From Isoetes taiwanensis (Eukaryota > Streptophyta > Lycopodiopsida > Isoetales > Isoetaceae): DNA of 64,000 bases. Position numbers and translations under genes: made by a program. The stretch is taken from assembly GCA_021234155.1 (NCBI GenBank), contig JAJEKV010000047.1:6041071-6105070 (forward strand). Reading direction: 5' to 3'. How positions within the stretch are numbered: the stretch's first letter is position 1; each line of letters opens with the position of its first letter. Shown here piece after piece: positions 5,110 to 63,630 of this stretch. The notes beneath the pieces are model-generated. The model ran no database searches. It worked only from the letters and a program-made list of their open reading frames with translations, and was not told the DNA's origin.

Positions 5110-7175
5110 GGCATTTTTCATAAGCAAGTTGCAAAACATGCCTGTGTTGTAGTCTGACTTTGTACCAGAAACTCTATCAACACCAAATTTCACGATCTAC
5201 ATCATCTTCTACAGAACAAAGCTCTGAAAAAATGACAGCAGTATATTAGCTCTCAAAAAATGCATTTACAAACAACATATTAACAGAAAATAACTTTCAT
5301 ATCATCTAGAATGAGCATATCATCAGAAAACAACATATTAACGTTATTAGAAATATGAGAATGAATATGAAATATTGTTTGAGTTAATTAAAAGAGCATA
5401 TTAGAAATATGAGAATGATTGAAATATCAGAAATATGCTCTGAAAGAAGCAACAAAGATACATAGAACAAAGATTACAGAGAAAAAAAATTCTAAACACT
5501 TGCTCAAAGTGAATGCAAAGAAACCAAAAAAAAATGCAAGACCATGAACCTGCAACCTGCGACCTGCGACGTGCAAGCTGGCTGATATGCTTGCACGTAC
5601 CAGTCTGCTGCGTTTTTTAAATCAATGCTCTTGCGCTTTCAGGGAGTATACGGAATCGAATGTACGTACATAGGTTTTTCAAGAATCTATTAAGATTCTC
5701 CAGGATACTACGAGTATTCCTTAAGATAATACAAAGATTCATTCCAAAGCACACCGAATGTGAATGATATACCTCCTTGAGATTCTCTAGGATTATCTTC
5801 ATATTATGAAAGAGTGTGTCAAGTCGTTCCTACATAACACACTCTTAAATTCTATATTCCCCTTAGATTCCCCTAGATCCTCTAGGGTTTCATTTAGATT
5901 CCTAATTGAATGAGCTCACTTTTAATGTACTTGATTTAGGTTTGAACTAGAGATGGTCAACTATGTGGGCTAAAGTGATAATGCCATCTAGCTCTTGAAT
6001 CAATAGGAGAAAGCTTTTTGCAAGCTCTTGAAGTGACAATGCCTTATAGTTATTCTCGTTCGTCTCGTTTTGCATTGGTGTACTTTGATGGATTGTGCAA
6101 AGTTTAGATTCCCCATATCCCTTTTTCATTAGGAATAGAATAGAATATGATTCTCCCCTTTTTCATTAGGGGAGAATGCCTTCCAATATGCCAAACTATA
6201 AACTATAATCCAAGATTTTCCGCACAATATCCAGGCCTTTGCTCACAATTACAAATTTTGGAAAGTGCCTAATGTGTTGATAGAGCCTGCATTATCTAGA
6301 TGTATTGGACGTAAACAGACTCTTGATGTCGGGTTGTTTTAGAATAGCAGATTCTTGCATATTATTACTAGGGGTTTGAATTCCACAATAGAGGCAACCT
6401 GTTTGATTACAACATCATATCGTTACTAGACAGGGATTCTAGCATTCTTAAATGTGAAGAACTCGAATTTGGCTATATTAGTCAACTGCAAATTATTTGC
6501 TTCATTGGTTTCTGTTGTCCCTTCTAGGTGCCTGCAAACAGATGCAGAAGCTTAATGTGTTGGCTCCAAGGCTTCTGATTTGTCATAAAAAAAGATGATC
6601 CAAACAATCAGCATATTCAAAGAGCTCGAAAAACGGGACAACGTGGTGCTCAGAAGATGGTTCACTCCCATCTTGCAGATGTGAAAATCTGGTTATATAA
6701 TTTTGACTTCTCTGATTCTCGGCAAAACTACATGGAAAAACAATGTCAAAATGCAACATTCGAAATGCATAAATGCCATGGTAGCTTTCTTCTAGATTTT
6801 CAGGCACACCCTAAATGGCTTATCATTATGTAACTCATGATAATTGTTTTTGGTTTTTGGACGCTAATGTTAGCAATCTAAAATTGTTAAGATAACTTCA
6901 GGAGTCCATAAACATTTCTAAACGCACAGTATTGCATGAACTCAGAAACTCTAAAAATCATTGGCATTGCTTTGGTAAAGTCTTATCGTCTTATCTAATT
7001 ATTAACCAGTAATTCATCGTTTTATCTGATTAGTGAAAAAAATGAAAGTTAATGGCAAATACCTGATTACAATACAAAAAATTGTTATTGCAAGAGGTCA
7101 TGTATATAGCCGAGCTTTTAGCAGGAACCCGCAAAGACGACATTTATGACTCGTATTTGGGAAAGATTTTCCTTA
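5110..7175. other. Intergenic, no gene seen; short (GAATA)n relic
   Basis: AT-rich DNA without supported ORFs. Positions 5690-5900 contain many loose copies of an AGATTC(T/C) motif. At 6131-6150 there is a GAATAGAATAGAATATGATT block that also occurs at the minus-strand LINE end near 32.46 kb, so it may be a bare LINE tail relic. Confidence 0.4.
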
Positions 7176-10690: not shown

Positions 10691-12357
10691 TGTGACGTTC
10701 CAGCACAGTATACGGTCCCAAGACGTATACTGTACTGCCTCGTCACGCGTACACGCCACCCCGACTGACGTGTACGCCGACGTGTAGCCAAGTGGGTAGC
10801 CCCTAGGGGGCAACTTGCTAAGAATGTGCATTAGTATTAATGTGCACATTTTCCAATGTACACATTAATGTGGGCACACATTTCCATGTGGCCACTTGAT
10901 GCCAAGTGGGCCATACCCAAGTGTGCAATTAATGTGCACATTTTCCAATGTACACATTAATTGGGTGCACACATTTCCATGTGGGCACATTTGGCCACCT
11001 AGCCATTAAAGGCAAGTGGGCCCATTCCCAATTATCCCACATGCCAAAAGGGGATAATTGGAAACCCTAGTCACCCCCTTGTCTATTTAAGTAGGAGAAC
11101 CCTAACTTGCCCATTTTCGTTTCTAGGGTTTTAGAGCTCTGTTTTGGCTGCCTCAAGAGCCAAAACCGCCTCCCAGACTCTGTCTGAGAGAACTGCATCA
11201 TTAGTTTCCCTTGATTCGAGCATTTCAGCAGGATGGTCGAGTTCAGGGCAGGAGAAGCAAGCCAAGGATTAGGTATTTAGTCAATTTAATAGCTTAAACC
11301 ATCTTCTAGTCATTGAATCAGTAGGTTTAGCCTATTAAATTGCCCATAGCAGCCCTCCAGATCTCTAGATAGCAGACTCTAACTAAAGAACCTAACTCTA
11401 TGATATAGATTAGATCTTGTTCTTTAGTTCTTCTGTGATGTATATGGATGATGTATCTCTATGAACTCCTTGTATTGGGAAGGGGGGTAGAGACCTAAAG
11501 CTTTGTAGTGATGCTCCTAGAGTAGCCTCTTTAGCACACTGTAGATTCGGCCTGTGCACAAGAGCCACACCGGGATGTGGGTGAAGGGGCCAGACTGGCT
11601 GAGAAGGAGGTTCATGTCCTGACTCTTGAACGATCCCTCTGGTGTGTAAAGCCTACCGGGGATCATTGTGACTAGGTCCAATGGCTTGCCACTGCGTGTG
11701 GGCAAGGCATGGGCTCGACACCCGCGGAAGTGGTGTTCACTTTCCGCTGGGTTCAACGAATACGGGCAAAGGCCCTCTAGTCACCTTGAGTCAAGATGTA
11801 GATCTCTCGAGGGAGTGATCCCTACCGCCCCATCGAATCGGGAGGATGAGCCCGTGAGTAGCCCTTTGGCTATGCATCCCGGCGGGCTACGGTCGGTCCC
11901 CGACACTTTTCGCACCACTCGCAAAGTGTGCAATGGGAGGGGCGGATGGAGTGGACAACCCTAAGCCATGTTCATATGCCAGCCAAATCCATTGCCATGA
12001 ATTCATGCCCGCAATGAACTCGAGACCCAAGCCGTCGGGTCATCCCTTTGAGTCTGAGCCTTGGGTAGGATTCCCTATGTGATGTGCTGATCTTTGTCTA
12101 TGCAGATATGTGGAGGACCATCCTTCGTGATGGTCATATGATGTTGATGTATGTGCTACTGACATGTATGTTTACGCTTCCGCAGCTAGGTAGGCCCTGA
12201 GGGAGACGGGGTGCAATGACCCTTCCACTCTTCCCACTGGAACCCGTCACGGTTGCAGTGTCATGTGGAGGGCCCTGTATTAGCATAGAGCTGGTATGGG
12301 GGATGAACTCCTGTTTGTATACGGTGAGTGCACCGTATATGAGTAGGGGACGTCACA
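10691..12357 (+). repeat. 5' LTR
   Basis: 1,667 bp. It contains two loose copies of a roughly 105-bp unit (AATGTGCACATTTTCCAATG..., about 10840-11010), and telo-box-like AAACCCTAG (11062) and AACCCTAAC. A TATA-like TATTTAA lies at 11084-11090 with transcribed-looking sequence after it. A hairpin ATACGGTG/CACCGTAT sits at 12319-12338 near the 3' end. Its first 80 bases differ greatly from the right LTR although the rest is highly similar. Confidence 0.92.
11084..11090 (+). promoter_or_regulatory. Putative LTR core promoter (TATTTAA)
   Basis: TATTTAA inside TGTCTATTTAAGTAGGAG. It is present in both LTRs at equivalent positions and preceded by a telo-box-like AAACCCTAG, a motif common in plant promoters. 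Confidence 0.5.
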
Positions 12358-12358
12358 G

Positions 12359-12370
12359 TGGTATCAGAGC
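12359..12370 (+). other. Primer-binding site complementary to initiator tRNA-Met
   Basis: TGGTATCAGAGC one base after the LTR. This is the canonical plant iMet PBS used by many Copia and Ty3 elements. Confidence 0.92.
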
Positions 12371-12404
12371 AATGTTCTTGGAGACCAAGAGCAAAGCAAT
12401 GACC

Positions 12405-12520
12405 ATGCTCCCAGTAGTACTAACTTAATAGGATCCTCAAACCTCGAGAAATGGGAAATTTTAGTGCTCCCAGTAGTACTAACTTAATAGGATCCTCAAA
12501 CCTCGAGAAATGAGAAATTG
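12405..12520. repeat. Tandem duplication in the leader, about 58-bp unit
   Basis: TGCTCCCAGTAGTACTAACT...CTCGAGAAATG occurs twice in succession just after the PBS. Confidence 0.8.
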
Positions 12521-12630
12521 TTTCTCATTTTTGTAGTATATGCTAAGCTAGTAACAGTTAAAGTGAATTAGTAATAGTTAAAGTGAATTAGTAACAGTTA
12601 AAGTGAAAAATTAGTGAGCTAAATAGGATG

Positions 12631-12697
12631 GTCTCACACGTCGCGCCAGGACCGATTTTGAACATCTCAAAACTCGTCTGGGCGCAACGTGTGAGAC
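12631..12697. repeat. Nested-palindrome hairpin, copy 1
   Basis: Outer arms GTCTCACACGTCGCGCC (12631-12647) and its near-complement at 12681-12697 (16/17). The inner arms around 12654-12675 are imperfect (GATTTTGA...TCTCAAAACTC). Same design as the copies at 13651 and 13863. Confidence 0.85.
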
Positions 12698-12828
12698 ATT
12701 GATCTGAAAACAGTTTAAAAAGTCAAAAAATTTTAGAAAAGTAACTTGGTAATTCGAATTTCAGCCTAGGAATTAGCTAGATTAGCTTTCCAATCTATTT
12801 AAACCTCATCTTAAAAGAATTCCCACAG

Positions 12829-12900
12829 TAGCGGGAATTGAACCTCCCACCCATAGGGTTGAACCCCCCCAAACCCCCCCGTGCCAACCACTGAGAGCGG
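12829..12900 (-). mobile_element. tRNA-derived SINE-like head (copy 1)
   Basis: Read on the minus strand, GCTCTCAGTGGTTGGCAC (A-box-like, 12881-12898) is followed about 40 nt later by GGTTCAATTCC (B-box, 12833-12843). These are the two internal RNA polymerase III promoter boxes of a tRNA. The sequence between is G-rich and does not fold as a tRNA, which suits a SINE head. The second copy comes from the tandem duplication. Confidence 0.5.
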
Positions 12901-13059
12901 GCGCAACGTGCGAGACATTGATCTGAAAACAGTTTAAAAAGTCAAAAAAATTTAGAAAAATTTAGAAAAGTAACTTGGTAATTCGAATTTCAGCCTAGGA
13001 ATTAGCTAGATTAGCTTTCCAATCTATTTAAACCTCATCTTAAAAGAATTCCCACAGTA

Positions 13060-13130
13060 GCGGGAATTGAACCTCCCACCCATAGGGTTGAACCCCCCCA
13101 AACCCCCCCGTGCCAACCACTGAGAGCGGG
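13060..13130 (-). mobile_element. tRNA-derived SINE-like head (copy 2, duplicated)
   Basis: Essentially the same A-box/B-box arrangement as the first copy, carried along by the duplication. Confidence 0.5.
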
Positions 13131-13650
13131 CATCGTTTGTGTTTGAATTATAATTCTTACTTAGAATTAAGCTTTAATAATGTTAGATAATATTAATTGC
13201 CAAGCCTACCCTTAAGCTAGATAGAGACAGCATCTCGATAGACACCAAGACTCCGATCGACATGACGCGCACCAAACAGACCGCTCGACTCCCTCGACAA
13301 GGCAAAACAGCCAGAGGCCAAGGAGGCTGAAGGAAACAAGAAGAGGAGAGAGCAGAACGAGAGCGGGAGGCCAGGGGTCAAGAAGCAGCAGAGCAGAAGC
13401 TGGTCCAACATTTTGAAGACTCAACAGCCCGCACAGTACACACCAAGGGAGTAACTCTAATGAAGAAAGATATGCACTTAGCCAATCATACAAAGGAGAA
13501 CCTTATTAATTTCGTAAATGATAAAATTTGTTTAATACAACGTGTTTTAGAGTAAATTATAACTGTATAAAGTTACTTAATTAAGTTAAGTTATAGAATT
13601 CTAGCTTTTGTTTTAGTCAAATTGGAGCTTTTGAGCAAAATTGAGATGAT

Positions 13651-20846: not shown

Positions 20847-22510
20847 TGTGGCGTTCCGGACAAAATTATCACGGTCCCAAGGCGATATCTTTCTCGCCTC
20901 AAATCCAGCACACGCCACCCTCCTGGGACGTGTCTGACGTGTAGCCAAGTGGGTAGCCCCTAGGGGGCAACTTGCTAAGAATGTGCATTAGTATTAATGT
21001 GCACATTTTCCAATGTACACATTAATGTGGGCACACATTTCCATGTGGCCACTTGATGCCAAGTGGGCCATACCCAAGTGTGCAATTAATGTGCACATTT
21101 TCCAATGTACACATTAATTGGGTGCACACATTTCCATGTGGGCACATTTGGCCACCTAGCCATTAAAGGCAAGTGGGCCCATTCCCAATTATCCCACATG
21201 CCAAAGGGGATAATTGGAAACCCTAGTCACCCCTTGTCTATTTAAGTAGGAGAACCCTAACTTGCCCATTTTCGTTTCTAGGGTTTTAGAGCTCGCTTTG
21301 GCTGCCTCAAGAGCCAAAACCGCCTCCCGACTGGCCCGAGAGAATCGCATCATTAGTTTCCCTTGATTCGAGCATTTCAAAGGGGATGGTCGAGTTCGTA
21401 AGGTGAGAAGCAAGCCAAGGATTAGGTATTTAGTCAATTTAATAGCTTAAACCATCTTCTAGTCATTGAATCAAGAGGTTTAGCCTATTAAATTGCCCAT
21501 AGCAGCCCTCCGTGATCTCTAGATAGCGGACTCTAACTAAAGAACCTAACTCTATGATATAGATTAGATCTTGTTCTTTAGTTCTTCTGTGATGTATATG
21601 GATGATGTATCTCTATGAACTCCTTGTATTGGGAAGGGGGGTAGAGACCTAAAGCTTTGTAGTGATGCTCCTAGAGTAGCCTCTTTAGCACACTTTGTGG
21701 GTCGGCGCCCCTGCACAAGAGCCACACCGGATGTGGGTGAAGGGGCCGATCGGCCGAGAAGGAGGTTCATGTCCCGACTCTTGAACGATCCCTCTGGTGT
21801 GTAAAGCCTACCGGGGATCATTGTGACTAGGTCCAATGGCTTGCCACTGCGTGTGGGCAAGGCATGGGCTCGACACCCGTGAAGTGGTGTTCACTTTCCA
21901 GTGGGTTCAGTCGAATACGGGCAGTGGCCCTCTAGTCACCTTGAGTCAGCATGTAGATCTCGGAGGGAGTGATCCCTACCTGCCCCATCGAATCGGGAGG
22001 ATGAGCCCGTGGGAGTAGCCCTTTGGCTATGCATCCGCTGGGCTCTGGTCCAGTCCCGACACTTTTCGCACCACTCGCAAAGTGTGCACGGGAGGGGCGG
22101 ATGGAGTGGACAACCCTAAGCCATGTTCATATGCCGCCCAAATCCATTGCCATGAATTACATGCGCAATGAACTCGGAGACCCAAGCCGTCCGGTCATCC
22201 CTTTGAGTCCGAGCCTTGGGTAGGATTCCCTATGTGATGTCTTTGATCTTTGTCTATGCAGATATGTGGAGGACCATCCTTTGATGGTCATATGATGTTG
22301 ATGTATGTGCTACCGACATGTATGTTTACGCCCGCAGCTAGGTAGGCCCCGAGGGAGGCGGGGTGCAATGACCCTTCCACTCTTCCCACCGGAACCCGCC
22401 ACGGTTGCGGTGTCATGTGGGAGGGCCCCCAGATAGCATGGAGCTGGTATGGGGGATGAACTCCTGTTTGTATACGGTGAGTGCACCGTATATGAGTAGG
22501 GGACGTCACA
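20847..22510 (+). repeat. 3' LTR
   Basis: 1,664 bp, starts TGTGGCGTTCC and ends GGGGACGTCACA. It matches the left LTR closely after the first 80 bases. At many differing sites this copy has CG where the left copy has TG, CA or an altered run. Confidence 0.92.
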
Positions 22511-35301: not shown

Positions 35302-37659
35302 ATGGCTGCTTGTGGCTTGGGTGCCAAGCTTAGGACTCCGACATTGTCATTGCGCATTAGACAGGCCCCTTCACAATACAGCACCTTGGATTTTCTAGTT
35401 CATGCTTATAACATTGCAGGAAAGTTAAGCAGAGCAGCGAAGACCAAGCATATCAGAATCAACCTAGCCCAATGGAAGTTCTTGGACTTTCAAAAATTAG
35501 AAGGAAGCATAAAGTGGCTTCTAGATGAGGTCAAGGATCTTGATGGCTTGGAGCAGGATAGGTGCAAGCTTTTAGCTAGAGAGCTATACATGGTTATGAA
35601 GAATGCTGAGATCCTGGTACAAGATTGGTGTTCCGAGGATTGGATGCTCAAGGCCATGCTAAGGGCAGACAATGGCTTCAGCGCCATGCTGCAGTGTTAT
35701 GAACAGCACTGGTGCATTTACTTCTTGGAGGTTGTACTAGCCTCTATAAGAAATAAATGCCCCATGCAAGACATCCCATATTGGATGATAGATAGAACAG
35801 ATGACTTTTGTAAAGGTCCTTCCTTTTTAAAAGCATTAGAGCAGGATAATGAAAGGTTGTTGGAAAAGCTAAGAAAGACTAGGCATAAGCTCGTCTATAA
35901 AACGTTCTGGGTAAATGGAAAATACAGGAAGTTCAGCATTTCCAGTCATTTACTACAGAGACTTGAGGCAGAGACCTCAAAGGATGATAACCAGGTCAGA
36001 ATCTATCTTCCAAGAATGAAAGGGTGCAATTGGAATGATCTAAATGACTTACCATCAAATGTTAACACATTACTAGGGGCTGGAAGCTTTGGAGTTGTTC
36101 ACAAAGCAAGCTGGCTTGGATTAGCAGCTGCAGTGAAGGTAGTCTCAATGGAAAAAGAGACCGATTTTTGGAACGAGGCAGCTCCAATGATGAAACTTCA
36201 GCACCCGCGAATTGTGCAACTCTTCTACTGCTCTAGTGGCCAGAGAGAGTGCCATCTATGGACAGAGTTAATGGGTCAAAGCCTTGGTCAGCTGTTAAAA
36301 TACAGAAACCCTTTTGCATTCACTACATCTGTAGATATCATGCTTCAAATCGCTGAAGGGTTGGAATTTCTTCATCAACAAGGAATTGCCCACAGAGATC
36401 TGAACCTTGCTAATGTTTTGATGGTTCCTACAAAAGGCCTTGACTGGGAAGAAGGTTTTATAAGAATAAAGCTCTCAGACTATGGACTGCATAAAACAAA
36501 ACTTTGTGGATCCAGAAATGGAGCTTTGGAACATTCGAGGGTGCGTTATTGGAGAGCACCAGAAGTTTTTGGACTCCCGAAAGAAGTTAGAGATGAAAAT
36601 GCAGAAAAGTTGTTTACCCACAAGGCAGATGTTTACAGTTTTGCAATGGTCTGTTACGAGTTATTGACTGCCACAGAGCCGTTTCAAGATGTATCAGACA
36701 ATACAGAACTCTTCAGGATTATAGGAATGGAGGGCAGGAGACCAGAGCTCCCTGTTAATTGTCCTCTCTATTTAGCCACATTCATAAAGATGTGCTGGCA
36801 TCAACATCCAGACATGAGACCATCATCTTCACAAGTATGTTGTATGCTTAGGAGCTTCAAGTGTTTAGTAATGAGAAGCTCTGTCACAGAAGCATCCATA
36901 GAAGAGACTATCACAGCATCAGACATTGGCAATCTCTTCAAAAAACTGGGTTTTAAGTTTTTTATAGAAGCCCTAAAATCCTGTTCCATACCTGTGCAAA
37001 CCTTTCTGTTATGGTTAACCAGTTCAGTTAAGGAAGTTAGAAAAGAACCTGGCTTCTGTGAAGTGGCAATATTAGTAGCAGATCTCTCTGCAAATTGGGT
37101 TGGACCTAATCATGATTTTGATCATGCAGCATATTGGTACAAAGAAGCAGCAAATCAAGGAGTTGCAAGTGCACAGTGGAGGCTTGGAATGTGTTATGAG
37201 ACAGGGCTAGGGGTTCCAAAGGATGAATGTCAGGCCTTTGATCTTTATAAGTTAGCAGCAGAACAGGGCTATCCTAGTGCAGAGGTAGAACTAGGGCGCT
37301 GCTACAGCTGCGGCTACGGGGTTCAACAAAGTACACAGAATGCTTTGATCTACTGGGAAAGAGCCTCTGCTAAACAATGCAGTACAGGTGAGCCTCTACA
37401 TTGTATTGAGTTACTTATCAGGGTGCTGTTAGAAGCTCCAGATGAGAAAGATTGCAACTGGGCTTGCACCAGGTTAAAAGAATTGGTCAGCAAAGAGAGG
37501 GTTAGCAGAGAGCTTGTTGCAGGACCTGCCTTCAGAAATGTGGAGTCTTTGACTTGTGCTTTGGGAGATCCCCATTTAGATCATTTCAGACAGGATTGGA
37601 TCAAGAAAATCCTTGAGAAATTAGCCTTGGAAGATGATATTCAGCTTGCTATTCATTAA
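35302..37659 (+). CDS. TKL-type protein kinase with C-terminal Sel1 repeats (785 aa, intronless)
   Basis: The start ATG sits in a good plant context (TAAATGGCT). Residues 1-250 form a helical region with no named domain. The kinase domain spans about 255-525: glycine loop GAGSFGVV (259-266), ATP lysine K279 (AAAVKVV), a possible alpha-C glutamate E292, catalytic loop HRDLNLAN (364-371), DYG instead of DFG (393-395), and APE (419-421). All catalytic residues are present, so it should be active, probably on Ser/Thr; HRDLN rather than HRDLK is unusual. Residues about 604-690 hold two Sel1-like repeats (AAYWYKEAANQGVASAQWRLG and AFDLYKLAAEQGYPSAEVELG), which usually mediate protein contacts. Cytosolic: no signal peptide or membrane span. 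Kinase-Sel1 fusions are familiar in seed-free plants. The lack of introns, unlike the LPA1-like gene, could reflect retroposition. An AATAAA lies about 190 bp downstream. Confidence 0.92.
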   Translation: MAACGLGAKLRTPTLSLRIRQAPSQYSTLDFLVHAYNIAGKLSRAAKTKHIRINLAQWKFLDFQKLEGSIKWLLDEVKDLDGLEQDRCKLLARELYMVMKNAEILVQDWCSEDWMLKAMLRADNGFSAMLQCYEQHWCIYFLEVVLASIRNKCPMQDIPYWMIDRTDDFCKGPSFLKALEQDNERLLEKLRKTRHKLVYKTFWVNGKYRKFSISSHLLQRLEAETSKDDNQVRIYLPRMKGCNWNDLNDLPSNVNTLLGAGSFGVVHKASWLGLAAAVKVVSMEKETDFWNEAAPMMKLQHPRIVQLFYCSSGQRECHLWTELMGQSLGQLLKYRNPFAFTTSVDIMLQIAEGLEFLHQQGIAHRDLNLANVLMVPTKGLDWEEGFIRIKLSDYGLHKTKLCGSRNGALEHSRVRYWRAPEVFGLPKEVRDENAEKLFTHKADVYSFAMVCYELLTATEPFQDVSDNTELFRIIGMEGRRPELPVNCPLYLATFIKMCWHQHPDMRPSSSQVCCMLRSFKCLVMRSSVTEASIEETITASDIGNLFKKLGFKFFIEALKSCSIPVQTFLLWLTSSVKEVRKEPGFCEVAILVADLSANWVGPNHDFDHAAYWYKEAANQGVASAQWRLGMCYETGLGVPKDECQAFDLYKLAAEQGYPSAEVELGRCYSCGYGVQQSTQNALIYWERASAKQCSTGEPLHCIELLIRVLLEAPDEKDCNWACTRLKELVSKERVSRELVAGPAFRNVESLTCALGDPHLDHFRQDWIKKILEKLALEDDIQLAIH

Positions 37660-52840: not shown

Positions 52841-53646
52841 TGAAGTTCAGTGGCAGCAAATCCAAGAGTTGTGGAATGTACGCTTGAGAATGGTTGTTGG
52901 CCCTCTAATCGGCCACAACTCGGATGGAGACTCAAGGAGAAGAACATACATGCATGTTTGAGGATTATACATCCAAGGAGGCAAAAGACTCTACATTTGA
53001 AGTACCATGGGTCGGTTGGCCACTAAGTGCCTCGAGGAATAAGGATGTTTATGGGTTGCACGACCAAGATTTTGTGCACAATGGCAAAAAGCTTGTTAAC
53101 CCCATAGATAGTACCTCTAGAAGATTGTACTTAGGGAACGAGCTAGTGACCCTAAATGACATATGCCATGTGTTTGACTTATGCCAAGGAAAGCATGGGC
53201 TGGAGGTTGGAGATGTGAAGCGCCGGGATAGGCAAAACTGGAGGGTTGCGCAATGCCTTGCCTCTAGAAGAGTTCAATAATGCTTGGACGACCTCATAAA
53301 TGGTTGTGCAGGCCCACCGATGCGAAATTTAAGGACAAAAGTTTATTTGGAAGTCGTGGCATCATATATTAGCACCTTCTTGTCACCTACTATGGACTTG
53401 AGAGCTCGGGTTAAGCCTACTGCAACAATGTCTTTCTTCTTTAGGTGAATAGCAATAATTTTTGCTACTTTCAATTTGGTTTGATCATTAAAATTTTAGG
53501 AGGTTGGTAATGACTTCAGATTCTTCGTGCATAACAGGCTTTGGAGACTATGGTTGAAGAACCAAAGCGCGCATTCGTTGTGTAAGAACTTCATTAGTCG
53601 GGAAAGCTTTATAGATGTGCAAATTGTCATGCCATTTTATTGTGCT

Positions 53647-53675
53647 GGGTGAAAGTATGCTGGTGGGTAGCAAAA
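53647..53675 (+). repeat. Left terminal inverted repeat
   Basis: Starts GGGTGAAAGTATGCTGGTGG and continues to CAAAA. It is followed by subterminal CAGCACCC repeats (53686-53708). Confidence 0.9.
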
Positions 53676-53973
53676 AAACGCGACCCCAGCACCCAGCACC
53701 AGCACCCTTCATACTATTTTTTCCACCCTTCACCAATTGAAGTGTAACCTATGCTATGCCCGTCACTTCACATAGGGCGTACCCGTTTCAATCATAACCT
53801 TCTTACCGCCCACCGTAACTAATGACTGTGACCCGAAAGGGTAGCGAACTTTGAATTTGTAATTTGCAACCGTGCTCCCCACCTTTTGCTACTCCGGCCA
53901 AATAGCCCGCGGAGAAGAAGCTCGAGAATTTCCGGATTCAGTCTAGTATTCCAAAACTCAAACGCCAAAAAAT

Positions 53974-56900
53974 ATGGTGAAGAAGGTTGTTAATCCAGCC
54001 GCTCGGCCAAGAATTCCAATGGATGCCATGCGCAGGGTAAGCAAAATGCACTGCCAATTTTGATGGCTTATGGTGCCCTGTTAATTTGTTTTTCTTCATT
54101 TCTTTCAGCCCAGAAGGAACGTGCCCCTAAGACCGGACCTGGCTGATTGCCGAACTAAGGAGGACTTCCATGCTTATGCGGGTCTATCAAACGAGGGTGT
54201 GCATCCCTCTCAATTTCGAATGGATGTGATATCTGCAGCAGAATATAACGAGGTTTGGGACACCAATGGTGTCAATCCCAACGAGACATCCATCGACAAA
54301 GTAAGGCCAGAGCATGAAGAAGCTCTAATTGAGCTGTTGAGCAAGATATACCCAGAGGGGTTGAAGAACAGAGAAGTAAGGAAGACAATTTCCTTTTTAT
54401 TTGCATTCAACAACTGCCAGAGGGCCAAGCAGGATCCAGACAATTTCAAGCTCAATTGGGCAGCAGTGGCAGCAAAAAGCAGAGCCTATTCGAGCAAGGT
54501 CAAGAGTGAACCCAAAGACCAGCGCCCCGTGGAACACAGCAGAGCCCAAAGAAATCACGTGAGACAACAACACACGAAAGCATAGCGAGAAAAGCCCGAC
54601 CTCGGCGAACCTGCCAGAAAATTAGAAGGGAGGTTGTCATTCAGAGTCTTTGCAATGTGTCCAAAGAAAGATTCTCAAAGATATGGGGAAAATATTTCCG
54701 TCCGGAAAGCATGATCCAAGATATGCAGGAAGCCCTAAAATTGCAGCAGAATGACCTAGTGTCAAAGAAGGAACATGTTGCACAATCTCAGGCAAAGGGA
54801 AGCTTCTTCTCGGCTGCAGAGGGGAAGTTGAAGACCATAAAGGATAATATTGCACGCCTTCAAGCACCGCCCGGATCCTAATGCGTGTGTCTCTGGCGAG
54901 ATTCATTCTTTGGAGAGGGAGAAAGATATGGCGTAATATATCTTTGAAGTCCCTACTTGAAATGGGAATGGGCCAATAGATCAAACCATTATGTGTAGAA
55001 AAGGTGGTGGTCGCACTAATGCCGAGATTGCCAACAACGAAGTCCCTCCTTGCAAAAGCCCAGCAAAGACTTACGAGGAATGTCACCAGTGAGGGAGATG
55101 ACCAAGAGAAATGATCAGCTGGTCAGCATCACTCCAATACCATTCCGATTGCCAATTGGGGATGAGGAGAGATGCTCCACCTGTGGTCTTGCATTCCAGG
55201 ATGATTACACCCTCAGCCTGCGGATGAAATGTGGACATCATTATCACGTTAGCTGCACCAGTTTGCTCATGGAAAAAGGATGTTTTCCGAAAGCACAGAC
55301 CATTCCCTCTGTGGTTAGTGCGAGGAAATAGGTAAGCCTAATACAAGAAAGCGAGAAGTGTTGCATCTTTGGAACAGCTTCGAAAAAACCGAGAAGAAGA
55401 TAATTGATGTTGATGAGTATGTAGCCACAACTCCTGATAGCAGCAGGAAAAGGAAATAGGTCAACAAATCAAAACGTAAAAGGACCCCAGGATCAGCCAA
55501 GCACAAGTCCACAAGGGTTCACACTCCACAGCCAAGACATGGGAAAAAAGGTACATGCCTGTTTTCAGGCTCTGATTTTGAATTGGTAGCATTAGAAGGT
55601 GTCAGAGACATTGGAAAGAAACTACCCGGATCTTGACACCGCAAAGACCTCGCAAAGATCAGTCTTTGGAGACACCAAAGCATGCTGAATCCAAGGGAGA
55701 TTCAAGTAGTACTGATGGTGCCAAAAAATTTAGTATAGTTCCAAATTCTGCAGCTGCCTCTACAAAGGCCTCCTCTAGCACTGTTGCTGCAGGGAAGGAA
55801 AACGATGGCGAAGATGTCGGCAATCGATTTAGAACGATCGTTAAGCGGTGAAACAGTTGACACGGTCAAGGGCCGGGAAGGTTGTGGAAGAAGAAAGTGA
55901 GGGTGAGTCGAGAAAATGACCTTGATGAGGGCGTCCCCATAGAAGTAGCATTTGGAAAGAAAAACATGGCTAATGTAATTTTGCCTTATGTATTTCAGGC
56001 AGGCAAACCTTGATTTTGCAAGACAACCCTAAACCATCAGCCAAAAGGTTTTGTTCAAACAATTAATATATTTGATCCTGTTTTATTCCACCTTTCCCCG
56101 TGCAAATTTTGGTTTGGATTATTCATTCAACTTAGGCTTCGTAAAAAACTTGTCTCAGAGAAAAAGAAGGCGCCAATGGTTATACTTAGTGAATCTGATG
56201 AAGAAGACAATACAGATAAAGAAGTGCCAGCACAAACTCTAACATACAAAAGGTGCCTGTTATCCTGATACATTTCAGAATGTGTATTCTCTACAAATTT
56301 CAGTTGTTAATTGGAGCTCATCCTTGCATGCAGGAGAACAAGACAGGTCGTGAATGAAGAAACCGAGGACAAAGGCAAAGCAAGGGTTACTGATAGCCGG
56401 GAAATACCCATACATTGGGGGCAGGGAGATACTAATAAGGATGTATCTGACTATGGCTATCAGCACTCTCCATCATCTGGTAGCAAAGATAAAGCAGAGT
56501 TCAGCAGGTTGAAGCAATGTCCAGCACCTCCCGATAGCACTTCCCAGCAGAGTCCAGCACACATCGCAATACAGACAAGCACGATGCAGCACACATCGAC
56601 AGTGGTTGCAAACGTCCAAGGATGGACACCCAGACGGAAGTTGATGGTGCTTGACGTAAATGGTGTCTTGCACGCACCTAAATGAGAGGGAGAATGAACG
56701 GGAAAATCTTGCCTCCACCACAAACGAAGCATGTTGTAAAAGAAACTGCAAATAAGTACCTCATTTGCAGACCAGGGTATCATGAGTTTGTGGAGTGGGC
56801 ACTGCAGAGGTTTGATATTGTGATTTGGAGTGCTTCTCTACTTCGGAATACAAGGGATATGGTGGATGCATTGTTCCCTGATTTGCAGACCAGATTCTTG

Positions 56901-57362
56901 AAGTTATATGGTCAAGAGCATTGCTATGCATGCGAGCATCCAAACAGACCAGAAAAACAAATTTTTTTCAAGGAGTTGAAGGTTGTACTTGAGGATTTTC
57001 CTCAAAATCATGGTATGATTTTCTTGGTTGATGACAGCCTACACAAAGGGTTTCTAAACCCTGCACACACAATCCTTCCCATTATGCCTTTCAAGGGGCA
57101 AGAAGAGGACAACTTTTTGCAGAAGTTTGTGTGTCCAACTTTGGAATACCTGTCTTCTCATACAGTACAGGAAACGATCTCACAGGTTGACATCACTGAT
57201 GCATGGTTGGAAGAGGAGACAGTTGCAGTGCTGGATTACTGCCTCAACAACTATCTTGTCTCGGCCTACTATATCCTCAATGCTCCATTAGAAGTACAAA
57301 GGCACCTGCTGGGCACCCTTCCTGGCGACCAGCATGACTCTGAAGACTTCGATGACTCATGA
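53974..57362 (+). pseudogene. Transposon gene A: RING-like plus FCP1/NLI-type HAD phosphatase protein, spliced and broken
   Basis: Exon 1 is 53974-54036 (MVKKVVNPAARPRIPMDAMR), exon 2 starts 54109, and later exons include 56136-56252 and 56334-57362. Order: a helical N-terminal region; a basic region; a RING-like segment near 55170-55320 (CSTC...MKCGHHYHVSC, the last Cys pair reached only after a frameshift); a long basic/acidic Ser-rich linker (ILSESDEEDNTDKE); then an FCP1-homology domain. Its motif I is LMVLDVNGVLH (56640-56673), motif II IVIWSAS, then FFKELKVV, and FLVDDSLHKGFLNPAHT. FCP1/SCP enzymes dephosphorylate proteins such as the RNA polymerase II tail. The D-V-N-G form of motif I, with Asn for the second Asp, occurs in a plant FCP1-like subgroup. 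Frameshifts lie near 54540, 55290 and 56680, with stops near 54930-54950. That all parts form one gene is inferred from aligned exon borders. Confidence 0.6.
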
Positions 57363-57665
57363 AGTAACCATTGTACACTACTTTTTTGTAATATATATGT
57401 ATAATTACTTTGTCTTATCTTGAATATTGAGTGATCTTGAGTGATGTCTCTAATCTTGAGTGTACAATTTTCTGTAATATATATCAAGCTTACTCTCCAA
57501 TACTACAAGCATTGTTTCCAATACTAAAATACTCCAATACAGCAGTCCAATACTACAAACATTGTGTCACAAGCATTGTCTCCAATACAATGATCAAAAT
57601 TTGAGACAGGTACACAAGTAACTACAGACCTGTTACAATGATAAAACAACTAGGCCAAAGCATAT

Positions 57666-60600
57666 TCAACCTTCATATGGCAGACTGTCAAGGATCATCT
57701 GGTGAGTAGCCTGTTCATAGGAAAATCTGTTGGTGCCAGGAATCTGATTCATCTCAAACTTGATAGCTGATACGTGATGACTGTACTGGAAAGTCAGGCC
57801 TTTGTCTTCAAGTAGCTCCCAACTACCATCTGGCTGGGCAGCATAGTACAAACCAGCCAACACATGTTCATCCACATTGAAGGTCTGACCCCAGCTGTCC
57901 TTGACAATTCTGTCAAGGATATGCCTCGGCTTAACAGATTTGACCACATAGAAATCTGCATTCTCCTGATTTCCCTCCTCGGCTACAACAGCAAAGTTAT
58001 CACCTTCCTCTACGTTTCCACTAAGCCATTCTCCATCACCTTCAAAAAATGCCTCATCGATTTCGTCTTCAGTACCTTCACCAGTAGACTTATCTGGCTT
58101 TAGTGTAACATATTTCCAATTCTTCAATCTGTGCTTGTTCACACAAGATGACCAGTTTCCTTTCAAACAGTTACCACAGAAACAACTTAAACCTCTATGA
58201 GCCACCCTTGTGCTTGATTTGGCCAAGTATGTCCGGATGCTGTGTATTTGCTTGGTCCCTTCCACCCTGGCACAGTCCAGCGGGTCTGTCCTATCAACAT
58301 CATCCTTTCCAATTACCCAGAAGTACCTGCAAGGAGACAACAAGTATTGCATCTCACAGACAGCATAATACAGCACTACTCATCACATTACAGCAGTTCA
58401 CAGACAGCACTTAAAGCAGATGAAAGCACTATTCAGCACATTACAGCAGTTTACAGGCAGCACTACTCAACAGAATACAGCAGATGAAAGCATAATACCT
58501 TTTGATGTCCCCGTTGTTGGTACCTTCATTCCAACGAGTTGCGAATTCACAGGCATCAGCAGCACCCCTAAATCTCACCCCATCATACTTGAGCTGCTCT
58601 CTAGTGAATGCCCCTTTAAGGACTGCCCCTTGCCCATCGTGCTCTCCCTTACCATGGGCTGTCCCAAAGAAATTCCATACTATTTCCTTCCCTAGCTCAT
58701 GGTGATATCTTGGTAGGAAATAGAATGGCCGGGCAGATTTGAATTGGCTAGAACAACCATCTGACCAAACTATATGCCTGGAGAAATCTACACCATTTGA
58801 TACAAGCCATAAATTGTGCTTTCTAAGACAGTGCTGCACAAAAAGAGTGTCATGAAGCTTGTCATCACTCAAGTAGAAATGGGTTTCCTTCAATAGCTTT
58901 CTGATCCCAGAACTGATGTCCATCCTATACGTGATGTGGACGAGAATTGTTATCTGGTCATTGTGCCAATGCTGGCTTTGAACCTCCCTTTGTATTTTTA
59001 TGCTGTAATTCTCTGCAAAATCAATTATAGAAACAATGGTGCCATGTTGGATATTGTCCAGGCAACTCCTGAATTGCATGGCCTGCCATCTAGCCCTGTA
59101 ATTGTGTGGCACGAATATCTTCAATGTGGAACACAGATATGAAATGAAATCCTTCACTGCCGTTCTCTTGTAAGACAATCTAAGGACTGGCTTTGGTCCT
59201 TTCTTTTTTTCCCCTTGCCATTTGAAGTCTCGTCTTGTGCTGCAACTTCAGACTGTGTCCCACCAGCTTCCTTGGATTTCTTACTTTTGTTTCTTTTCTT
59301 CTCAACTTGTGCTGCAGCTTCAGGCTGTGTCCCACCAGCTACCTTGGATTTCTTACTTTTGTTTCCCTTCTTGGTGGCATTGGCTCTTTTCTTTCTGCTG
59401 CCACCTGGCACCTCCTTGGAAACGCGACGCAACTCCACCGGCCTCTTACGTCTCCAGCTCCATGGAATCGTAACAAGATCTGTAGCATAAAACGTAAGAT
59501 TAAGCGCCAAGTTGAAAGCACAAAAGCAGTATTCAGCGGATGACAGCACATATCATCATGTTTCAGCATGCAATAAAGAGAGTATTACCTTTTCAAACGT
59601 CTTCCATTCAAGCAAGAACTCATGATTCTCTCTTTCTCTTAGACATATAGGAAGAGTTTTTATGCCACACCGACATGTGCATCAAGCGATCATGTTTATG
59701 CCATTCTTCACCCTCGCTCTTGTTGCAAACCCACGACCCTCGAGCTTGCTTTGGTTGAGTCGTGCGTATGTTGGCTGGCGGACACTTCTCACCAGTCCAC
59801 GGACCTGCGCAAGTGCACTTGCACTCTTCACCATGAAATCCGGTTTTTAGACCTTAATGCATTCGGGGCTACCCCGGCATACTCCAACTTCATATGGTAT
59901 ATGCAACAACAGGTTTCCCTTTCTGATACTTTCTTTACATAAATAGGCTTCAACTTCTCGAAAGCCTTTAAGCAAACAGGGTGTTCAGGATGTGCCTTTT
60001 TGTATTGTTGAAATAGTCTGCAGCTGAATGGTGGCCGTTGGTTAGAAATATTTATGCAATAATAGCAAAGAAAAAGTTTGTATGGAAACTTATACACGTG
60101 TGACCTCCATAAGGTGTAGGGGATAAGAAATTGAAGCTTGACTCTCCAACGATGTTCACAACATCTTTCTTGCAAGGAGAGACTACGCTATTTTGTTTCG
60201 AAATTCGCTATGCTTTGCTTGCAAGCAGGGGTGAGAGAATCGCACCTCAACCTCCTTTGGAAGCTAGACCACGGACCATTTCCAAGGACGGCTTCCGATT
60301 TTCTTAATCTGCGTTTGCAATTGTTGACCTCATGCAACCTATCATAAGAAATATTGCACATTAATCAATGAACATATCCCACCAAAGATCACTTTCAGCC
60401 AGATACAAGCACTTAAAAGCATGAAGAAGCACGAGGCATGAAAGCAAGAATTAGATGTACCTAACAGCCCCGCCATAGTGGAATTGCATCTCGATTTTGT
60501 GGAAGAAGCCATCACCGATTAATCGAGGTTCTCGCTCTCCAAACATCATGGTTCCTTTGCCTCTTTGTGGCTGCCATTGTCTGTTTCAAGTTGTTGAGCA

Positions 60601-61011
60601 AAACACCCCACGCCTTGCACTCCTTTGGATTTGGCAAAATTCCGGTTACGAGATTTCCATTTCGTGGTGATGAACCACCCTCTTCATCACATCGGCCTTG
60701 AGTTCGGGTGAATGCTTTTTGGTGAGCTTGTTGAAGTAATCAACTACAAGCTTGGCTATTTCTTGCCTGCGTCTCGTGCTCATAACCTCCCGTTCAACCG
60801 CTGCTTTCCTCATCTTATTCCGTAATCTGTATTCTCTCTTTCTCTCTGCATCCAATTTCTTATAAATTGCAGAGGAAACTGGATCTTCACGCGATATTTC
60901 CTGTGTTGCATTGACATCCAACAAATCTGGAACACTGTATTGGAATTCATCAGGCCAAAAGTCCAATGCTAAACGTGTGATTGCCTCCAGGCCGGTATCA
61001 GGGAGCGCCAT
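57666..61011 (-). pseudogene. Transposon gene B: putative DDE-like transposase, five exons, broken
   Basis: Exons (minus): 60461-61011, about 60100-60338, 59589-60017, 58499-59479 and 57666-58326, with GT/AG borders; about 950 codons. The start ATG 61011 gives MALPDTGLEAITRLALDFWP. Exon 3 is Cys-rich (ETCCCIYHMKLEY; in a shifted frame GEECKCTCAGPWTGEKCPP). Exon 4 has two 24-residue basic repeats (NKSKKSKVAGGTQPEAAAQV) and then the core: IVSIIDFAENYS, VWSDGCSSQFKSARPFYF, WNFFGTAHGKGEHDGQG. The Asp of IDFAENY, the Asp of WSDG and the Glu of GKGEHDG are my candidates for an RNase H-fold triad. The C-terminus has a zinc-binding-like CFCGNCLKGNWSSC. Frameshifts: near 60640, 60560, 60190, 59840 and 59200 (A-rich run). 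Similar 'SDG..SQFK...HGKG..DG.G' proteins are widespread in eukaryotes; transposase function is inferred from these motifs and the TIR context. Confidence 0.65.
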
Positions 61012-61294
61012 GAAATTCCTGAGAGAGGGAGAATAAGTGAATTGGAGGGAGAATTTTCGCGGGCCATGAGGTCGTGGTAGTTCTGGGCTCGATCCAATTT
61101 GCAACGTACTACCACTCGCGCGAAAATCCAGCCAAAATCGAACAATCATTTTCCTAACGGTTCGTTGGTGAGGTGGACGTGCGAGTACATGAAGGGCGTC
61201 AAAAATATGACGGGCAGTTACGCCCACCAGCACCCAAAGTAAGCAAAAGCAGGGGTGCTTTAAGCGGGCTAAAACCCTGCTATAAGCATGCTAC

Positions 61295-61318
61295 AAGCAT
61301 GCGTCCGGACGCATGCTT
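61295..61318. repeat. 24-bp perfect palindrome beside the right TIR
   Basis: AAGCATGCGTCC followed by its exact complement. It is preceded by further GCATG copies at about 61286 and 61298. There is no equivalent at the left end. Confidence 0.85.
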
Positions 61319-61345
61319 TTGATACCCACCAGCATACTTTCACCC
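61317..61345 (-). repeat. Right terminal inverted repeat
   Basis: Complement of the left repeat with one mismatch at base 24. It overlaps by two bases the end of a 24-bp palindrome (61295-61318). Confidence 0.9.
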
Positions 61346-61599
61346 TGCTGCTCATAAAGTATTTCAGAGATAAATTTGGGCATTTAGAGTTGCCCCTACA
61401 GTCCAGTTACGTGTGCGAGAACTTTTTTTCCAAAGTGGGTGTCATGGTGCATAAGGAACTCTGCTCGGCATTGGAACAGATTGTGTAGTGTACTTCGAAG
61501 AACCAGTGGAAGCCAAGCTTCAACAAGAAAAAAGAATAAATCCATGGCAATTCAAAAGGCTTAGTATCTTGGCAAGGTACTCAGCATGAGAAGTCTGGC

Positions 61600-63240: not shown

Positions 63241-63630
63241 GGACGCCCATTCGCTAACTCCTTGTGGATAGTGAGATATCGCCAAAAGAGTGGCCGTGGG
63301 TCAGACTGGACTGCACAGCCAAGATTGCCTTTTTGAAGAGAACCAAGCTTCTTGCCTAGAAATTGCCATTGCCTTCTGCCTTGCTGTTAATCTGCCAGTT
63401 CTCAACACCGGTTGGCCCGGTTGGGTGGAGAACTACCATCAATTATCTTGTGGTTTTGGATCTTCCTCTAGTTTTGCAGATTAACAGCAAGGCAGAAGGC
63501 AATGGCAACTTCTAGGCAAGGAGCTCTTCAAAAAGGCAATCTTGGCTGTGCAGTCTAGTCTGACCCACGGCTACTCTTTTGGCGATATCTCACGATCCAC
63601 AATGCGTTAGCGAATGGCGCCTAACTTTTC
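63241..63630. repeat. Large imperfect inverted repeat, arms about 150 bp, loop about 85 bp
   Basis: The left arm starting ACGCCCATTCGCTAACTCCT (about 63242-63395) is the near-complement of 63480-63625. Small differences include an AACCAAGCTT-type block present only on the left. The right arm is continuous with the gag-like ORF on the minus strand, so the left arm is an inverted duplicate of the same sequence. Confidence 0.85.

Follow-up and report, generated by a model that had tools for sequence, protein, structure and literature searches.

The genome of the lycophyte Isoetes taiwanensis harbors a mobile family of two-gene DNA elements, one of which lies in the 64,000-nucleotide stretch analyzed here (the window; contig JAJEKV010000047.1 of assembly GCA_021234155.1, positions 6,041,071 to 6,105,070). 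This element spans window positions 53647-61345 and is 7699 bp long. Most likely, it is a two-gene cut-and-paste transposon that belongs to the Sola superfamily or is closely related to it, in which gene B would supply the transposase and gene A, which converges on gene B, is a constitutive accessory gene whose function is deduced from its domains. A preliminary description of the window had noted 29-nt terminal inverted repeats (TIRs) matching at 28 of 29 positions, a TGCT target-site duplication (TSD), and two convergent genes between them, all of which were found again on re-examination.

A multicopy family with four-base-pair duplications

The boundaries of the window copy are as follows.

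53643..53646, no strand: left TSD, TGCT, read from the sequence
53647..53675, plus strand: left TIR, GGGTGAAAGTATGCTGGTGGGTAGCAAAA, a 28/29 match to the right TIR
61317..61345, minus strand: right TIR, a 28/29 match to the left TIR
61346..61349, no strand: right TSD, TGCT, read from the sequence

The element begins with GGG and ends with CCC, and its inverted arms reach 42 nt at 86% when part of the TSD is taken in. Besides the element's own TIRs, the window contains no further copies of them (first 24 nt, at most six substitutions). A chance origin for the TIRs was rejected because they are 29 nt long and recur across the genome with TSDs.

Searching the 1.66-Gb genome (1110 contigs) with the first 254 bases of the element scored 40 left ends at 95 to 100% identity from 585 candidates, the window's own being counted. 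The window copy and 25 of the 39 other left-end matches were examined; sampling was by left end only, and copies without one are outside the sample. A right end was present in 16 of the 25 fetched stretches (12/20 in a first set and 4/5 in a second), and exact 4-bp duplications surround 11 of the 12 and 3 of the 4 two-ended copies in these sets. The right end of copy L028 lies beyond the stretch first read and makes this the 17th fetched two-ended copy, again with an exact duplication. When the window copy is included, 16 of 18 two-ended copies have exact 4-bp duplications, and the other two match at three of four bases (TCCT/CCCT in L020 and CACT/TACT in L030). The duplications seen across sites include AATA, TGTA, AAAC, TGAG, AAAG, GTCT, AAAA (twice), TACA, TACT, AAGT, TTTA, TAAT, ACTA, and TCGG (that of L028); because they vary between sites, the insertions are independent. 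The element belongs to a multicopy family with past mobility, as the preliminary description had proposed. Another fetched copy, L019, has two left ends on the same strand, 7.5 kb apart; no right end was found in its stretch.

Eleven copies of at least 7.5 kb are uninterrupted: the window copy, L009, L010, L013, L017, L020, L026 (with an inner inversion), L029 (with a small deletion), L030, L031, and L032. Sequence of both genes, recognized by protein similarity in broken frames, is present in all 11, which answers the question, raised in the preliminary description, whether the two genes occur together in other full-length copies. Among 11 copies with open reading frames (ORFs) listed, none has both genes open. 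Six two-ended deletion derivatives of 3.1 to 7.1 kb (L012, L021, L023, L024, L025, and L027) all keep the N-terminal and RING parts of gene A, and four keep its NIF part, which is gone from L021 and L025. The transposase core is complete in none of the six: a fraction of 0.77 is left in L027 and of 0.15 in L025, and the other four have none. The remaining eight fetched copies are one-ended within the stretch read, among them L022, which has lost almost the entire gene A. In this family, gene A is a constitutive accessory gene.

In a pairwise comparison of 18 copies, the differences amount to 5 to 20% over shared bases, and in six copies the differences were found to be clustered (variance of 6.8 versus 0.94 expected). 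They center on CAG/CTG and CCG (window 53647-61345 and copies L009-L027). At CAG, the middle A is replaced by G in 17%, and at CTG, the middle T is replaced by C in 18%; insertions and deletions occur too. In addition, CAG has A in place of its G in 12% and CTG has T in place of its C in 13%, changes expected of deamination. Deamination was rejected as the whole cause since it leaves the middle-base changes unexplained. The likelier main cause is systematic base-calling error at methylated CHG sites, and therefore many frameshifts may be artifacts and the family may be young. Because an intact 785-aa ORF, protein kinase-like by eye, stands at window 35302-37656, the assembly is not error-ridden throughout.

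The transposase and its probable superfamily

Judged by its homologs and predicted fold, gene B is a DDD transposase, and the DDE-like protein of the preliminary description is in this respect confirmed. Its features are the following.

57666..61011, minus strand: gene B, DDD transposase, reading from MALPDTG at 61011 as far as a stop at 57666 (ORFs, homologs)
58500..59182, minus strand: transposase catalytic core, predicted RNase H fold (homolog alignment, predicted structure)
59020..59022, 58759..58761, and 58636..58638, minus strand: D76, D163, and D204, respectively, in ORF 58441-59247 (alignment)
58327..58498, minus strand: GT-AG intron, spliced as ATCAAAAG/GTACTTC, IKRYF (homologs, aligned copies)
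59680..60034, minus strand: cysteine-rich conserved region, FEKLKP..CCCIYH.. (tblastn with the homologs found, two frames)

An eye-made reading of gene B used as a query gathered 142 homologous proteins, with clear homologs in moss, a streptophyte alga, a conifer, and animals. The nearest named homologs, together with the CHG pattern, point to a plant host. D163 and D204 are present in 36/36 aligned proteins and D76 in 35/36, with one gap; in a wider set of 12 proteins, D76 and D163 are present in all 12 and D204 in 11. The core is predicted to take an RNase H fold. A host-family identity for gene B was rejected on its transposase-type fold and DDD triad. Pfam gave no match above the cutoff and no transposase family for the gene B pieces scanned, and 12 gene B relatives gave one weak Transpos_assoc match (E 0.018) and no other transposase family. 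NCBIfam had no match to gene B, and Foldseek returned nothing at E <= 0.001. Scans for gene B relatives in viral contigs, bacterial genomes, and archaeal genomes, and for the element's TIR in viral contigs, gave nothing useful. Three relatives of gene B (P0112, P0114, and P0116) also carry a Ulp1/C48 peptidase domain, a further partner of these transposases that belongs to a ubiquitin-like pathway.

The earlier view that both genes are spliced stands for the last intron of gene B (58327-58498). Homologs match on both sides of this intron, and among nine aligned copies that span it, the donor AAAAGGTATTAT occurs in eight and the acceptor CAG in six. Other presumed exon borders may be frameshifts, and gene B is not open as one frame in the window copy.

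TSD length separates the family from the common plant superfamilies. Duplications are 8 bp long in hAT, 8 to 11 bp in Mutator, 2 to 3 bp in CACTA, and 3 bp in PIF/Harbinger elements; a literature passage gives 2 bp for Tc1/mariner. All five were rejected on the family's 4-bp TSD. Ginger elements, described in a literature passage as having 5'-TG...CA-3' ends and TIRs of 40 to 270 bp, were rejected on the GGG...CCC ends and 29-nt TIR. Sola elements, according to PMC10741241, have a DDD transposase, 4-bp TSDs, TIRs of 11 to 1124 bp, and lengths mostly of 2 to 9 kb, and they are found in moss and are uncommon among flowering plants. Physcomitrella Sola1 appears in a table of PMC9033089 and Sola repeats of a fern genome in a table of PMC6890710, and an excerpt of PMC3627910 describes Sola2 elements with AT-rich TSDs and Fanzor capture. 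Literature searches for Sola elements of gymnosperms or lycophytes, and for second ORFs that encode RING fingers, gave no useful lead. The present family has the 4-bp TSD and DDD transposase of Sola, and both its TIR and its length fall within the Sola ranges. Placed by these described traits, the element is likely a member of the Sola superfamily or near kin. The new superfamily raised in the preliminary description is not supported, as the TSD length and the DDD triad fit Sola, a superfamily that is rare in plants.

The accessory gene and a diverged gene pair

Gene A combines, as first described, RING and FCP1/NLI-like domains, which are arranged as follows.

53974..57362, plus strand: gene A, with an N-terminal domain of unknown fold, a coiled-coil-like stretch (by eye), a RING-H2 domain, and a NIF/FCP1-type HAD domain (borders and exon limits inferred)
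53974, plus strand: candidate ATG of gene A, with the stop at 57360 (ORF reading)
55173..55300, plus strand: RING domain (PF13639 match, comparison with L017)
56632..57155, plus strand: NIF/FCP1-type HAD domain (PF03031; limits approximate)
56653, plus strand: HAD motif I, DVNGV, with the LVDDS motif at 57027 (motif reading)

PF03031 matches ORF 56682-57362 with an E value of 8e-18 (65 bits against a curated cutoff of 21.8), and the RING-like stretch of the window copy matches PF13639 at E 5e-4, under the Pfam cutoff. The window gene is not one open frame: a frameshift costs the RING its last CxxC, and a stop stands between the DVN motif (from 56644) and the remainder of the NIF domain. Copy L017 has a RING-H2 with all eight ligands (CSTC..CGHHYHVSC..CLEC), for which PF13639 is still below the cutoff. 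In copy L024, RRKLMVLDVNGVLAQ continues in frame into the NIF domain, and this domain, with two pieces joined for the scan, matches PF03031 over profile positions 1-155 of 160 (E 5e-20, 72.2 bits).

Motif I of gene A is DVN in the window, in L024, and in the diverged homolog A' of L028. The sequence AAATGG, which forms the N and G codons, is unchanged in 15/15 aligned copies spanning motif I, and the first D codon varies in several of them. Active HAD phosphatases have DxD in motif I; because gene A has DVN instead, its phosphatase activity is doubtful, and the HAD domain may have weak activity or none. No homolog of the complete gene A reading emerged at E <= 0.001 from a protein collection (6367 candidates). 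A search with the NIF part at E <= 0.01 found two distant short-contig proteins with LDVN (E about 1e-8), and among PDB sequences UBLCP1 matched weakly (E 6e-4 to 7e-4), as did Tim50 (E 0.02). AlphaFold run without an alignment on the N-terminal part gave a model with a pLDDT of 46, which was not used.

Copy L028 contains a second, diverged pair of genes, A' and B'. The element sequence breaks at base 707 and resumes at 1036 through the right end, bases about 708-1035 being missing, and the insert is about 16.7 kb long (loci L028, 1207-9500, and L034, C919). The A' region, on the same strand as the element, has a long ORF (L028 2587-3543) that is coiled-coil-like by eye. It also has a cysteine-rich stretch that resembles the gene A RING over 27 residues (E 2e-4 in a single comparison; 0/2000 shuffles reach the score) and matches zf-RING_11 at E 0.08, below the cutoff. 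A NIF ORF with IIDVN follows at 5931-6677 (PF03031, E 1e-12) and is 29% identical to gene A (E 1e-17). About 4.7 kb beyond it, on the opposite strand, B' (region 11403-13340) has long open frames with all three D's, and its core is 49% identical to that of window gene B over 198 residues, compared with 44 to 45% for the best fetched homologs. Because A' and B' converge as A and B do, the layout of A forward and B backward recurs at great divergence. The pairing of A with B may, on this single locus, be older than the present family.

Elsewhere in the window, two groups of blocks with 92 to 100% identity lie some 10.15 kb from each other, at 10779-12357 and 20936-22510; they may be long terminal repeats or reflect a duplication. 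Also, an inverted repeat with 94-nt arms, 95% complementary and 183 nt apart, lies at 63247-63617.

Alternative explanations and comparison with known systems

Homology, fold, and the duplications suggest that the gene B transposase would bind the 29-nt TIRs, excise the element, and reinsert it with a 4-bp stagger. The gene A protein would most likely act alongside it, in the manner of the accessory proteins found in other two-gene plant transposons; all steps proposed for it are read from its domains. Its HAD part would recognize or weakly dephosphorylate phosphorylated protein tails (the RNA polymerase II tail, for example), and its RING would recruit ubiquitin conjugation to the transposase or to host repressors. 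The preliminary description had likewise proposed that the second protein touches host transcription or protein turnover, which is at present conjecture. A bolder version, which we offer tentatively, is that a long-lived Sola-like clade has kept, through deep divergence, a gene dedicated to host manipulation. The product of this gene would combine a RING E3 ligase with a pseudo-phosphatase from the RNA polymerase II-tail family, and it would bring ubiquitin conjugation to transcribed chromatin or silencing factors and thereby protect or target the element.

The accessory role has to be set against capture, which is common among plant transposons. Capture as a one-off event in a single copy is ruled out by the 11 full-length copies and, less firmly, by the A'/B' pair. 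A subtler form, in which one ancestral element captured a host gene that has hitchhiked since while gene B alone matters for movement, gains from the missing homologs of whole gene A and from the fact that its NIF part matches only two distant proteins with the same LDVN motif. A within-family selection test likewise showed no codon-position bias among copies, which is weak evidence given the likely base-calling errors. Against this stand the sequence of both genes in every uninterrupted copy of at least 7.5 kb and the convergent layout repeated in L028, where a gene B-type transposase faces a diverged NIF gene that has a RING-like stretch, and we regard ancestral capture as unlikely. The L028 argument in turn is weakened by several observations: the A' RING-like stretch is incomplete (one C is replaced by S, and a stop precedes any last CxxC), a pairwise comparison of the N-terminal parts of A and A' found no significant match, a search of L028 for the unit's own ends found none that are clear, and the unit is known from a single locus.

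Another reading is that the A'/B' unit is host DNA or a domesticated pair instead of a sister transposon, which would leave an ancient link unsupported. Convincing TIR or TSD bounds are missing (the best end pair matches at 10/12 nt with TCAA, and two such matches were found versus 0, 0, 1, 0, and 0 in five shuffles), element bases are lost at the insertion, and the ORFs are long and open. However, the unit sits inside a transposon copy with an exact TSD, B' is a transposase homolog with three D's, and in a genome of 1.66 Gb the chance presence of a DVN-type NIF gene next to B' seems improbable; a host origin is accordingly one that we doubt. Somewhat less remote is an undescribed superfamily whose relation to Sola-like transposases goes no further than the DDD fold. 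Gene B pieces fall in no Pfam transposase family, its 12 relatives give little more than the weak Transpos_assoc match, window gene B sits on a long branch of the tree (0.89), and the Sola placement rests on described traits, not sequence kinship. Nevertheless, the DDD triad and 4-bp TSD are the two traits used in PMC10741241 to describe Sola, and the transposase group is widespread, with homologs from moss to animals. We consider a separate superfamily rather unlikely, and a two-gene transposon of Sola or near kin the probable reading.

Conserved non-transposase genes in transposons offer insight into the ways in which mobile DNA escapes or exploits its host. A RING and a polymerase-tail-phosphatase-like domain paired with a DDD transposase offer a testable link between transposition, ubiquitin, and transcription. 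The family has this pairing, as apparently does a diverged unit within its genome, and the element adds to a superfamily that is little studied in plants.

Two-gene plant transposons include CACTA (TnpA/TnpD), MuDR (mudrA/mudrB), and Harbinger (ORF1/transposase). Like the element, they join a transposase and a conserved accessory protein within one TIR-bounded unit, but they differ in transposase family, TSD length, and termini. To our knowledge, their accessory proteins are not RING/HAD proteins. Gene A shares with FCP1, SCP, UBLCP1, and TIM50 the PF03031 domain and the RPGYHEF, IVIWSAS, and LVDDS motifs, but it differs from them in having DVN instead of DxD in motif I, in being transposon borne, and in being joined to a RING. 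A narrow search of open-licence literature gave no link between FCP1 and transposons among the matches listed, and an equally narrow one for NLI interacting factor together with transposases yielded a single paper, whose title concerns plant promoters and magnetic fields. Sola, compared by described traits and not by sequence, differs in that a RING/NIF second gene is absent from the portions of the descriptions available, whereas the DDD transposase, 4-bp TSD, TIRs, length of 2 to 9 kb, and occurrence in early-diverging plants are shared, as far as those portions describe them (PMC10741241, PMC9033089).

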